Below are positions 14,275 through 40,081 of a DNA stretch of 40,234 nt, one piece after another; position 1 is the stretch's first letter; every line of letters starts with the position of its first letter. The DNA lies in contig JAWXAN010000014.1 of assembly GCA_034439475.1 (NCBI GenBank), forward strand, positions 1 through 40,234, written 5' to 3'. Under the pieces are notes generated by a model. It ran no database searches, was not told the DNA's origin, and was given only the letters and a program-made list of their open reading frames with translations. The position numbers and the translations under genes are program-made. This DNA comes from Candidatus Zixiibacteriota bacterium. GTDB taxonomy: Bacteria; Zixibacteria; MSB-5A5; GN15; FEB-12.

Positions 14275-14285
14275 CATTCATTTTA

Positions 14286-14367
14286 TGCGGGAGACGAGAC
14301 TCGAACTCGTATGTCTTGCGACGCTACCCCCTCAAGATAGTGCGTCTACCAATTTCGCCACTCCCGC
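14286..14367 (-). tRNA. tRNA-Leu (anticodon GAG)
   Basis: An 82-base class II tRNA. The acceptor stem GCGGGAG pairs with CTCCCGC, discriminator A73 at 14286, with no encoded CCA. The D arm (GGCGAAATTGGTAGACGC) has the usual leucine form. The anticodon stem CTATC / GGTAG closes the loop TTGAGGG, giving anticodon GAG, which reads CUC and CUU. A long variable arm (CGTCGCAAGACAT) is followed by the T arm ACGAG-TTCGAGT-CTCGT. It lies about 70 bases downstream of secG on the same strand and before a clear terminator, so it is likely processed from a secG-containing transcript. Confidence 0.95.
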
Positions 14368-14437
14368 AAACTCTGTTCCAATTTTTCTATGCGTTAGTCG
14401 ATGAGGCCAATTCCGCGACACGCAGGACACATCCCGG

Positions 14438-36156: not shown

Positions 36157-36822
36157 TTAGATATGTAAATTGAATTCCAGCGTGGTTTCGCTGGTTTCAT
36201 CGGCATGGGCGAGAATCGTGCCGTCGCCCGCGACAATCATCGATGACCCGCCGAACACATTTGTGCCATCATCCCCCACTGCATTGACAGCTACTATCAT
36301 TGCGCCAGTAGATTGGGCCCGCTCGACGATGAGCCGCTTCCAATCATGTATTCGGACATTGGGCCAGGCGGCAGGCAGAAAAATAATTGGGACCTTTTCT
36401 TTCTTGAGATTCTCGAAAATGTCCGGAAAACGGAGGTCGTAGCAGATCGCCGAGCCGACACGTCCAAAATCTGTTTCAAATATCCCTGCTTGTTTGCCCG
36501 GTGAGTAAACTGTGGTTTCGTTCATGCCCGGGAAGAGATTTATCTTTTTGTAGATTTGGTACTTATCCTTATGGAAATATCCGTAGGAGTTAAAAAGACC
36601 ATCGGTCGACAGATACGGGAATCCGGCCATGACTCGAAAATCATGCTTTGAGAATTGCGCCTGAATTGCTTTGAAATCGGGGACCTCGCGAGTTGTGTAG
36701 AGACAGCCCGATGTGGCCAGCTCTCCGAAGCAAACAAGTTCTACTTTTCTTGCCTTGGCCAAATCCAAATATGGTGTTAGGTCCGAGGTGTTGACATGTT
36801 TTTGGACGAGCAAAGTTTTCAT
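36157..36822 (-). CDS. Carbon-nitrogen hydrolase (nitrilase superfamily)
   Basis: A 221-residue nitrilase-superfamily amidase. The catalytic triad is visible: Glu34 in CFGELATSG, Lys93 in IYKKINLFPGMNE and Cys127 in GSAICYDLRFPDIF. The later conserved WPNVRIHDWKRLIVERAQS and GGSSMIVAGDGTILA are also typical. The protein is shorter than the usual 260 residues, lacking part of the start; the ATG at 36822 gives a plausible MKTLLVQKHVNT N-terminus. Members such as omega-amidase (Nit2/YafV-like) are likely. Its start lies 12 bases after pyrC, making it the last gene of the pyr operon, so a role in pyrimidine or amide turnover is possible but not shown. Confidence 0.85.
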   Translation of the reverse strand: MKTLLVQKHVNTSDLTPYLDLAKARKVELVCFGELATSGCLYTTREVPDFKAIQAQFSKHDFRVMAGFPYLSTDGLFNSYGYFHKDKYQIYKKINLFPGMNETTVYSPGKQAGIFETDFGRVGSAICYDLRFPDIFENLKKEKVPIIFLPAAWPNVRIHDWKRLIVERAQSTGAMIVAVNAVGDDGTNVFGGSSMIVAGDGTILAHADETSETTLEFNLHI

Positions 36823-36834
36823 AGTATCTATCTT

Positions 36835-38148
36835 CTATAACTCGAAAACTGTCCGGCCGTTCAAAATTGTTCTTACAACCTGCCCTGAGAGCTTATAACC
36901 CACAAACGGAGAGTTCTTTGACCGCGAGCGGAATTTCTCGCGCGATACTGTCCATTTCTTATCGGGATCGATAATCGTTATGTCTGCTTCTGAACCGATT
37001 GAGAGGGTTCCGCCGGGAAGATTGAATATCCTCGCGGGATGAATTGTCATTTTCTGAATTGCATCTCCCCAGTCCAAATAGCCTTTGTCAATGAGGTACG
37101 TTTTCACAAGCCCCACTGTTGTTTCGAGTCCGATCATACCGGCCGGAGCCTGATCAAACTCGGAGTCTTTGCTTTCATCAGAATGCGGGGCATGGTCTGA
37201 GGCAATGCAATCGATAGTGCCATCAACTAAACCCTCGATTACCGCCGCCACATCGTCTGCCGTCCGCAGCGGAGGATTGACACGTAAATTCGTGCTGAAC
37301 TCTTTTCCTATCTCTTCATCAGTCAAAACAAAATGGTGCGGGCAGGCTTCAGTTGTGACAAGAATCCCTTCGCGCTTGGCCTGCCTGATAGCATCGACCG
37401 CGCGGCGAGTGGAAATATGTTGAATATGAAGTCTCGCGCCGGTGAGTCTGCAAAGGGCAAGGTCACGCAGGACTGCAATCTCCTCCCCTACAGCGGGCGC
37501 GCCTTTGAGTCCAAGTCGTGTGGATTCAAACGATTCATTCATCACCCCGCCAGCGCAGAGATACTGATCCTCGGCATGCTGCATAACCGGGATATTGAAC
37601 ATTTTGGAATACTCCATCGCGTTGCGCATGATCTCAGGATTCTGGACATAATGGCCGTCATCGGTTATCGCAACCGCGCCCATTTTGACCAGATCGCCGA
37701 TTTCGGAAAGCTGTTTCCCTTCGATATTTTGGGTGATCGCGCCGACCACATAGACCCGGGCATTTGCATTCTTCGCTCTGTCTTGCACAAATTTGACTGT
37801 CTCCTGACTGTCAATTCGCGGTGTTGTGTTGGGCATACAGCAAACCGAAGTAAATCCTCCGGCGGCGGCGGCGTTGCATCCGCTTTCGACCGTTTCGGCG
37901 TCCTCCCGACCCGGTTCACGGAGATGGACATGGCAGTCTATAAGTCCCGGCACCACTAATTTTCCGGTTGCATCTATAATCTGATCATAGTCAAGTCCGC
38001 TTATCATTTTTTGTATTGCGACAGAATTTTTTTCGATTCCGGCTATTTTACCATCTTTGATAAAGAGATGGGCGTCGTTTGAAAAACCCAGAGCCGGATC
38101 GATAACCCGTCCCCCTTTTATCACAAAATCATATTTCTTGCTGGCCAT
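36835..38148 (-). CDS. pyrC: Dihydroorotase (class I PyrC)
   Basis: PyrC closes carbamoyl-aspartate to dihydroorotate in de novo pyrimidine synthesis. The 437-residue amidohydrolase has the metal-binding DCHVHLREPG (His73, His75), later QHISTRRAVDAI, PHHFVLTDEEIG and the catalytic Asp in IASDHAPHSDES. The N- and C-terminal beta parts (IKDGKIAGIE, GSEADITIIDPDKKWTVSRE) fit the long class I form of Gram-positives, Bacteroidetes and Aquifex. One-base overlap with pyrB at 38148; the nitrilase gene follows 12 bases downstream. Confidence 0.96.
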   Translation of the reverse strand: MASKKYDFVIKGGRVIDPALGFSNDAHLFIKDGKIAGIEKNSVAIQKMISGLDYDQIIDATGKLVVPGLIDCHVHLREPGREDAETVESGCNAAAAGGFTSVCCMPNTTPRIDSQETVKFVQDRAKNANARVYVVGAITQNIEGKQLSEIGDLVKMGAVAITDDGHYVQNPEIMRNAMEYSKMFNIPVMQHAEDQYLCAGGVMNESFESTRLGLKGAPAVGEEIAVLRDLALCRLTGARLHIQHISTRRAVDAIRQAKREGILVTTEACPHHFVLTDEEIGKEFSTNLRVNPPLRTADDVAAVIEGLVDGTIDCIASDHAPHSDESKDSEFDQAPAGMIGLETTVGLVKTYLIDKGYLDWGDAIQKMTIHPARIFNLPGGTLSIGSEADITIIDPDKKWTVSREKFRSRSKNSPFVGYKLSGQVVRTILNGRTVFEL

Positions 38149-39086
38149 TATTCTTCCCCTTCTTCTTTGCGACCTGAAAGCAGATAGAGAACAGCCATCC
38201 GCACAGCCTGCCCGTTGGTAACTTGCTCCAATATGACGGATTTGTCGCCATCGGCAACTTCGCTGGTAATTTCCACGCCGCGATTAATCGGCCCAGGGTG
38301 CATTATGGTGTAATCTTTGTTGAGGCGTCGAAGCCGCTCTTTTGTGATCCCAAAAAGATTTGTGTACTCGCGATTTGAGGGAAACAGTCCCCCTTGCTGG
38401 CGTTCCAACTGTATCCGCATGATATTGACCACATCGGCGCCATCAAGGGCTTCATCAATATTTGAGTAAACATCACAGCCAAATTTCTCGACTTCGTAGG
38501 GCATAAGTGTGCTCGGCCCGCAAAGCGCAACCGATGCTCCCATTGTTTTCAGCCCCCAAATATTTGAGCGAATAACGCGCGAGTGTTTGACATCGCCAAC
38601 AAGCACCACGCGAAGTCCGTCGAGTCGGCCGTATTTTTTCCGGATAGTATACATGTCGAGAAGACCTTGGGTGGGATGCTCATGCGCTCCATCGCCGGCA
38701 TTAATAATATTGGCCTGCATACATTGTGTCAGAAAGTATGGTACCCCGGTCGATTGATGCCGCACGACGACCATATCGATTTTCATGGCTTCGATGTTTT
38801 GCACCGTGTCGCGAAGGCTTTCTCCTTTTTTTACCGATGACCCAGAGGGCGAGAAGTTCACCGTGTCAGCAGAGAGACGCTTTTCGGCCAGTTCAAATGA
38901 GATGCGAGTGCGGGTCGAATTTTCATAGAAGAGGTTGACAACTGTGATACCGCGTAGGGTCGGGAGTTTCTTGATTGTCCGGCCAAGAACCTCGCTAAAG
39001 GTATCGGAAGCATCAAGAATCTTGGTTATATCCTCTTTGGGGACGTTTTCAAGTCCAAGCAAATGCCGTGATGAAAGCAGGCTCAT
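38148..39086 (-). CDS. pyrB: Aspartate carbamoyltransferase, catalytic subunit
   Basis: PyrB condenses carbamoyl phosphate and aspartate to carbamoyl-aspartate. The 312 residues contain the carbamoyl-phosphate site STRTR (57-61, in NLFYENSTRTRISFELAE), the HPTQGLLDMYTI motif, GDVKHSRVIRSN and the C-terminal MHPGPINRGVEIT. No pyrI regulatory subunit is seen in the window. It overlaps pyrR by four bases (ATGA, 39083-39086) and pyrC by one, so the genes are translationally coupled. Confidence 0.96.
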   Translation of the reverse strand: MSLLSSRHLLGLENVPKEDITKILDASDTFSEVLGRTIKKLPTLRGITVVNLFYENSTRTRISFELAEKRLSADTVNFSPSGSSVKKGESLRDTVQNIEAMKIDMVVVRHQSTGVPYFLTQCMQANIINAGDGAHEHPTQGLLDMYTIRKKYGRLDGLRVVLVGDVKHSRVIRSNIWGLKTMGASVALCGPSTLMPYEVEKFGCDVYSNIDEALDGADVVNIMRIQLERQQGGLFPSNREYTNLFGITKERLRRLNKDYTIMHPGPINRGVEITSEVADGDKSVILEQVTNGQAVRMAVLYLLSGRKEEGEE

Positions 39087-39727
39087 TTCTTGCCTCCCTT
39101 CTTTGCGGTAGCGGGCTTCGCCGTGCCTTTAGCCCGTTTGCCGGCACTGTCGTTGGTTCTTTCAACTGACGGGCGCGCGGATTCCGGCGGACGCTTGCTG
39201 ATGTACACTCGGTCAGTCCCTTCCCTTTCGGTGACTTCAAGAATGACCCTGTCAGTGCGGGAAGTAGGGATATTGACCCCCACATAGTCGGCTTTAATCG
39301 GCAATTCGCGGTGTCCGCGATCCACAAGCACTGCCAGTTGGATTGAACGCGGACGACCGAAATCGATTATCTGGTCAAGAGCCGCGCGGACTGTCCGGCC
39401 GGTGAAAAGCACATCATCGACTAAAATGATATTCTTATTAAGCACCGAGAATAGAATGTCAGTGCGCTGTATAATCGGTTGGTCGAGATTGGAGTGAATG
39501 TCATCGCGATACAGGCCAATATCCATAAGACCAACAGGGACGTTGACTTTTTCGAGCTGTTCGATAATGGCCGCGATGCGTTTGGCCAATATGGCGCCGC
39601 GGGTTATTACGCCAATGATAGCGATTGTCTCGGCGCCGCCATTATTCTCGACAATCTCGTGCGCAATGCGTGTTAGGGCTCGACTTATCTTTTTTTCATC
39701 GAGCACGATGTCCGTCTGCGTTGGCAA
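39083..39727 (-). CDS. pyrR: Bifunctional pyr operon regulator / uracil phosphoribosyltransferase PyrR
   Basis: PyrR binds a leader RNA of pyr operons when UMP/UTP is high and also has uracil phosphoribosyltransferase fold and activity. The core shows DEKKISRALTRIAHEIVENN, the PRPP loop VDDVLFTGRTVRAALD and VDRGHRELPIKADYVG. The start is placed at TTG 39727, 6 bases after a GGAGGT (39734-39739); it gives the family's natural N-terminus, whereas ATG 39805 has no site and adds an unrelated sequence. After about residue 178 there is a basic Ala/Lys/Arg tail of about 35 residues (ESARPSVERT.. AKKGGKK), longer than in well-studied PyrR and perhaps helping RNA contact. First gene of pyrR-pyrB-pyrC-nitrilase. 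Confidence 0.93.
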   Translation of the reverse strand: MPTQTDIVLDEKKISRALTRIAHEIVENNGGAETIAIIGVITRGAILAKRIAAIIEQLEKVNVPVGLMDIGLYRDDIHSNLDQPIIQRTDILFSVLNKNIILVDDVLFTGRTVRAALDQIIDFGRPRSIQLAVLVDRGHRELPIKADYVGVNIPTSRTDRVILEVTEREGTDRVYISKRPPESARPSVERTNDSAGKRAKGTAKPATAKKGGKK

Positions 39728-39733
39728 GCGGGT

Positions 39734-39739
39734 ACCTCC
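39734..39739 (-). promoter_or_regulatory. Ribosome-binding site deciding the pyrR TTG start
   Basis: GGAGGT on the minus strand, 6 bases before the TTG at 39727. No comparable site precedes ATG 39805, so this site selects the shorter PyrR. Confidence 0.8.
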
Positions 39740-39833
39740 GGAATGTATTATAAACAATGATAGGATTATAGTATGCGAAGCCGCCAATTGGCGGACGAGA
39801 GTCATTGAAAGAATTATTTATCATGCAGTATTC

Positions 39834-39866
39834 CCTTTAGAAATCTCACCGGATTTCCTTAAAAGG
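39834..39866 (-). promoter_or_regulatory. PyrR-binding loop candidate in pyr operon leader
   Basis: On the minus-strand RNA a lower stem CCUUU / AAAGG encloses an asymmetric bulge (UAAGG on one side, CU on the other) and an upper stem AAAUC / GAUUU with hexaloop CGGUGA. The known PyrR-binding loop has loop CNGNGA on a stem ARUC/GGYU with an asymmetric internal bulge below. Here the loop matches at every fixed position, and the one stem difference (U-A in place of U-G) keeps pairing. It lies just after the likely start of transcription (about 39868) and about 107 bases before the TTG of pyrR. Confidence 0.7.
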
Positions 39867-39874
39867 TTGGAGTG

Positions 39875-39902
39875 AGTATACGGGATTGGCGGACAGAGTC
39901 AA
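39875..39902 (-). promoter_or_regulatory. Sigma70-type promoter of pyr operon
   Basis: TTGACT (39897-39902) and TATACT (39875-39880) on the minus strand, separated by 16 bases. Transcription would begin near 39868, a few bases before the PyrR-binding-loop candidate. Confidence 0.7.
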
Positions 39903-39950
39903 GTGTCGGGGGGATTATTTTTTGCGGGGGAATAAAACATGTGCAGTGAC

Positions 39951-39963
39951 GGGCGAGGGCGCC
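39951..39963 (+). repeat. GGGCGAGGGCGCC repeat
   Basis: An exact copy of 19028-19040, 21 kb away, and present in inverted form (12 of 13 bases) at 18998-19009. Confidence 0.65.
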
Positions 39964-40081
39964 GGGTTCTATTGTCCTTGTAGCGATTCCGCCACCGCGG
40001 ACTGCGGTTCAGCGATTCTTTCTTCTCTTTGAATATATTTTCATCCTGCCGGCTCCAAAGTATAGAGGGAAAAGGGAAGAT

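Follow-up and report, generated by a model that had tools for sequence, protein, structure and literature searches.

The pyrimidine operon on a 40,234-nucleotide stretch of DNA from a member of Candidatus Zixiibacteriota, an uncultured phylum of Gram-negative type, is headed by an RNA hairpin at 39834-39866 on the minus strand that is, to judge from its sequence, almost certainly a PyrR-binding loop. The whole stretch that was analysed is referred to as the window. The loop is strongly indicated to gate a leader ORF that runs into pyrR, and the reading preferred here, with a probability of roughly 0.55, is that PyrR-UMP would block translation of the leader and that Rho would then terminate transcription within it. 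An earlier reading of the window, made from the sequence alone and termed the sequence-only reading, had overlooked the leader ORF. Its proposal that the operon of a Gram-negative-type genome is controlled by PyrR through the loop finds strong support: nearly all pyrR-bearing close relatives retain the loop, its stem covaries, and the first gene of the operon is pyrR.

The operon and its predicted PyrR-binding loop

The promoter, the loop and the genes of the operon all lie on the minus strand:

39875-39902, minus strand: sigma-70-type promoter, TTGACT (39902-39897), 16 nt, TATACT (39880-39875), with 10 of 12 consensus matches
39834-39866, minus strand: predicted PyrR-binding loop, by covariance model R1, covariation in relatives and a sub-cut-off match to RF00515
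39735-39739, minus strand: GGAGG, Shine-Dalgarno (SD) of pyrR, by sequence and anti-SD pairing of -10.9 kcal/mol
39083-39727, minus strand: pyrR (TTG start), bifunctional regulator/uracil phosphoribosyltransferase, NCBIfam NF003549 at 226.9 bits against a cut-off of 138, also matching solved PyrR structures
38148-39086, minus strand: pyrB, aspartate carbamoyltransferase, NCBIfam NF002032 at 409.7 bits
36835-38148, minus strand: pyrC, dihydroorotase, NCBIfam TIGR00857 at 423.5 bits

The NCBIfam matches for all three genes bear out the placement of the loop upstream of pyrR-pyrB-pyrC. A carbon-nitrogen hydrolase of the nitrilase superfamily (36157-36822, minus strand) follows 12 nt after pyrC and probably belongs to the pyr operon as its fourth gene; the only tRNA gene of the window, for tRNA-Leu (GAG), is at 14285-14368 on the minus strand. 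The residue K152 of Bacillus subtilis PyrR is implicated in RNA binding. PyrR from the window has V at the matching position, and the equivalent residue in 69 relatives with a readable motif is K in 31, V in 17, A in 14 and I in 5.

On the minus strand, TTGACT-N16-TATACT is followed by CACTCCAA and then by the hairpin, and the promoter scan agrees with the sequence-only reading in placing a promoter directly ahead of the hairpin. Transcription is predicted to start at about position 39868, so the loop would sit at the 5' end of the mRNA, and its end lies approximately 106 nt from the start of pyrR. The hairpin (39866-39834) reads CCUUU-UAA-GGAAAUC-[CGGUGA]-GAUUUCU-AAAGG and folds as drawn, with a minimum free energy of -8.4 kcal/mol. 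It consists of a 5-bp lower stem (CCUUU/AAAGG), a 3-nt UAA bulge on the 5' side, a 7-bp upper stem with a G-U pair at its base, and the hexaloop CGGUGA; the hexaloop, the asymmetric bulge and the lower stem had all been described previously, but the upper stem had been given 5 bp rather than 7.

The hexaloop conforms to CNGNGA on a paired stem, and the flanks AAUC/GAUU depart from the consensus ARUC/GGYU at one position (U-A for U-G), as they do in 8 of 36 relatives. A consensus-pattern scan of the window returned one match, against 0.00 in shuffles. The covariance model R1, which was built on relatives and has the window's own site among the sequences behind it, finds the loop in the window's genome at 52.1 bits (E 3e-11). 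With the Rfam PyrR model RF00515, the loop scores 29.1 bits against a gathering score of 54; the loop part of that model fits, and its downstream structure has no good counterpart in the window. An Rfam scan of the window's genome gave several weak PyrR matches, of which one (C54, 30.7 bits) scores slightly above the true site; these were rejected as further PyrR sites, given that R1 reports the pyrR leader only, and the regulon of the loop therefore appears to be the pyrR-pyrB-pyrC operon alone. As had been noted for the leader, no intrinsic terminator or T-run was found in a scan of 39600-40000.

Conservation of the loop across Zixibacteria

The nearest named relatives of the window's PyrR protein are mostly Candidatus Zixiibacteriota MAGs. 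Matches resembling pyrR are present in 57 of the 61 genomes searched, the window's own counted and including G025, whose sole match is weak and probably paralogous, and loops upstream of pyrR were found in 54 leaders. A covariance-model search of related genomes had been put forward as the check on the loop, and R1 duly picks out a single strong site in each of 53 genomes among 61 close relatives; over the phylum it matches in 98 of 132 genomes. Most of the genomes compared are MAGs. Wherever the surroundings of an R1 match were read, the match proved to be upstream of pyrR. Two loci, L011 (G016) and L060 (G044), possess pyrR, and a PyrR loop was not found upstream of it. In 89 of the 98 leaders, a promoter-like sequence of the form TTGA..N15-19TA...T precedes the loop by no more than 120 nt.

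An alignment of 36 loops shows that the C, G, G and A of CNGNGA are invariant and that two-sided compensatory changes occur at six of the seven upper-stem pairs (54 cells), a level reached by none of 500 shuffles; slid controls fail in the same test. The lower stem, CCUUU/AAAGG, is nearly invariant among relatives. The closing C-G of the hexaloop is replaced by A-U, U-A, U-G or A/G, with CNGNGA retained, at L013, L024, L026, L028, L029, L030, L040 and L053, and the loop is one base shorter or longer than a hexaloop at L046, L048, L052 and L056 of the same phylum.

A leader ORF whose presumed ribosome site lies in the loop

Three further features lie between the hexaloop and pyrR, the second of which extends into the gene:

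39833-39838, minus strand: AAAGGG, presumed SD of the leader ORF, within the 3' arm of the loop's lower stem, with 16S anti-SD pairing of -4.6 kcal/mol
39696-39824, minus strand: leader ORF of 42 codons with ATG at 39824, by open frame and start position
39781-39794, no strand assigned: palindrome CCGCCAATTGGCGG inside the leader, unconserved in relatives

The 3' arm of the lower stem is presumed to be the SD of the leader ORF, which stops 32 nt inside pyrR in a frame that differs from that of pyrR. The AAAGG arm is already paired in the hairpin alone with a probability of 0.96, suggesting that basal translation of the leader may be low.

Across the phylum, the same loop is found in three layouts. 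In type A, which comprises two genomes (L188 and L191, family f7), the SD formed by the arm is pyrR's own. In type B, which comprises approximately 23 genomes (families f2, f8, f9, f10, f12, f13, f14, f17 and f18), the leader ORF enters or crosses an intrinsic terminator and in nearly all cases, L182 being an exception, reaches the terminator hairpin, so that a ribosome would disrupt the terminator. In type C, the layout of the window and of approximately 74 genomes, the ORF extends over the leader as far as the pyrR start, which it overlaps or falls just short of, and there is no terminator; this type comprises families f1 (with the window), f3, f4, f5 and f19 together with single members of f2, f9 and f10, and counts L042 in the family table, where the terminator call is weak, as well as L181 and L190, which were called type C and by eye resemble weak terminators. 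Sister families share loop and ORF with type C and differ by an intrinsic terminator placed in the path of the ORF. At L185, the leader ORF is in frame with pyrR through the terminator and would make a 210-aa fusion protein. Outside the phylum, loci read by eye include type-A-like arrangements in Thermoleophilia-like loci (L113, L114 and L136) and type-B-like arrangements in Dehalococcoidia and one KSB1 locus (L128, L129, L123, L130 and L124).

An ATG lies 4-12 nt after AAGG in 50 of 70 type-C leaders, compared with 9.7 in shuffles. In 58 of the 70, the leader frame stays open as far as the pyrR start, compared with 18.3 +- 3.4 in shuffles; the other two frames are open in 15 and 14 of the 70. 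The choice of leader-ORF starts gave preference to ATG and passed over very short frames, a slight bias towards open frames. With near copies removed, 50 of 61 type-C leaders have the open frame, against 15.3 expected. The leader peptides themselves are dissimilar among relatives, and a comparison for selection on the peptide offered pairs that were too few or too diverged, with indels between related leaders that are not clearly in-frame. No conserved peptide is therefore claimed, the case for translation consists of the open frame and the start position, and the act of translation, rather than its product, seems to matter.

Such counts are unexpected for an incidental ORF, and it is accordingly improbable that the loop directly controls pyrR translation or mRNA stability across the intervening ~100 nt with the leader ORF a bystander, even though the loop is conserved by itself and mycobacterial PyrR loops act on translation; moreover, no pairing that would mask the ribosome site of pyrR was found. 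Sequestration of this site as the switch was rejected, since across type-C leaders it is no more hidden than in shuffles. The sequence-only reading had suggested that control may be at translation, which points in the right direction insofar as an intrinsic terminator is not involved, but the ribosome site presumed to be occluded is that of the leader ORF and not that of pyrR. The same reading had offered the palindrome CCGCCAATTGGCGG as the acting element, and in the window's genome it is indeed a stable hairpin between the loop and pyrR. That genome contains only one near-exact copy, however; among the 216 loci searched the palindrome was found in no relative, and it lacks a T-run. Together with the unhidden pyrR ribosome site, this confinement makes the palindrome unlikely as a switch, and an effector role for it is very improbable indeed.

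Leader composition and the proposed termination step

Because the loop hides the presumed ribosome site of the leader ORF, PyrR probably switches the operon off by excluding ribosomes from the leader. In the proposed switch, in which PyrR binding, its dependence on UMP and translation of the leader ORF are all predicted, PyrR-UMP would bind the loop at high UMP and lock the lower stem, which would hide the leader-ORF ribosome site and leave the leader free of ribosomes. Rho would load on the naked leader, in which G is scarce relative to C, and transcription would end before or early in pyrR. At low UMP, a ribosome would open the stem, translate the leader ORF to beyond the start of pyrR and exclude Rho, allowing transcription of the operon, and pyrR would start from its own strong ribosome site.

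We infer the Rho step from several features of the leader. Type-C leaders have a C-over-G skew of +0.24, compared with 0.00 upstream of the loop (p 5e-12) and -0.04 for a control set of 83 5' regions from related genomes (p 9e-17), p-values that are optimistic because the test treats leaders descended from one ancestor as independent. The mean skew is positive in every type-C family, and the skew before the terminators of type B is -0.14. Type-C leaders are also slightly less structured than shuffles (p 5e-4), and a rho gene is present. The window's leader contains 22% C and 12% G and is itself more structured than its shuffles (-25.8 vs -21.8 kcal/mol), probably because of the palindrome. In Bordetella, a region of C>G marks a Rho terminator that is guarded by a translated upstream ORF (PMC9426467), and repression of translation leads to Rho termination at E. 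coli topAI (PMC12121999). The skew, the low structure, the exposed pyrR SD, the rho gene and these precedents collectively favour PyrR-gated leader translation with Rho. An alternative role of the G-poverty might be the avoidance of stray ribosome sites.

The main rival is translational coupling to pyrR, which has the gate in common with the preferred model: PyrR-UMP would block the leader ORF, pyrR would mainly be translated by ribosomes finishing it across or beside the pyrR start, repression would act on translation, and any loss of transcript would be secondary. This rival is tentative and the less likely of the two. It draws on type-C leaders, nearly all of which have a leader ORF that overlaps the start of pyrR or ends close to it, hardly ever in the pyrR frame, and on type A, where the identical gate acts directly on pyrR. 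Coupling would not be required, however, since pyrR comes with its own strong ribosome site (an SD motif occurs in 67 of the 70), which is no more hidden than in shuffles; in addition, the stops of type-C leader ORFs are scattered from -50 to +47 nt of the pyrR start, mostly beyond it, and coupling leaves the C-over-G skew unexplained. The broader proposition, that PyrR gates leader-ORF initiation and thereby Rho termination while other members of the phylum combine this loop and ORF with an intrinsic terminator, is given about an even chance.

Comparison with known systems

The window's loop shares the CNGNGA hexaloop, the stem and the asymmetric bulge with the pyr attenuators of Bacillus subtilis, and its PyrR is of the same equivalog family, but the window is without an antiterminator or terminator and there is one site per genome, whereas Bacillus has several. 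For Thermus strain ZO5, PyrR-dependent leader attenuation was reportedly proposed by Van de Casteele et al. in 1997, with PyrR said to act via ribosome access to the leader and a translating ribosome to prevent termination. The likeness to Thermus ZO5 lies in a pyrR-led operon with a short leader, and type B of the phylum has the full anatomy, terminator included. The anatomy of the window fits that proposal in that the loop may control ribosome access to a leader ORF; type C differs in that it has no intrinsic terminator, its ORF spans the leader into pyrR, and its leader is G-poor relative to C. In Mycobacterium smegmatis, the SD with which the PyrR loop overlaps reportedly belongs to the first pyr gene, as attributed to Fields and Switzer in 2007. 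A PyrR loop overlapping a presumed SD is likewise found in the window, and type A of the phylum has the mycobacterial layout; in the window, however, the SD overlapped is that of the leader ORF and not that of the first pyr gene. The PyrR-dependent translational repression of M. smegmatis (Fields and Switzer 2007) is cited in PMC10672894. CruR of Bordetella (PMC9426467) resembles the window in having a region of C>G together with a uORF, translation of which excludes Rho, but there the nascent peptide senses the signal, whereas in the window a protein would gate initiation of the ORF. The predicted wiring of the loop to a leader ORF without a terminator, as in type C, differs from the mycobacterial, Bacillus and Thermus layouts.

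A recent review describes PyrR as a regulator of pyrimidine synthesis in Gram-positives, with other mechanisms for Gram-negatives (PMC13328217). Among the papers searched, none was found to describe PyrR control in Zixibacteria, which does not prove its absence, and those found contain no experiment for this phylum. The PyrR loop is the usual arrangement in this uncultured Gram-negative-type phylum, and the form that it takes in the window's genome is missed by the Rfam cut-off. Within one phylum, the same loop is associated with three outputs: the ribosome site of a gene, a leader ORF with a terminator, and a leader ORF without one. With three outputs arranged around a fixed sensor, the evolution of regulatory output becomes directly testable.
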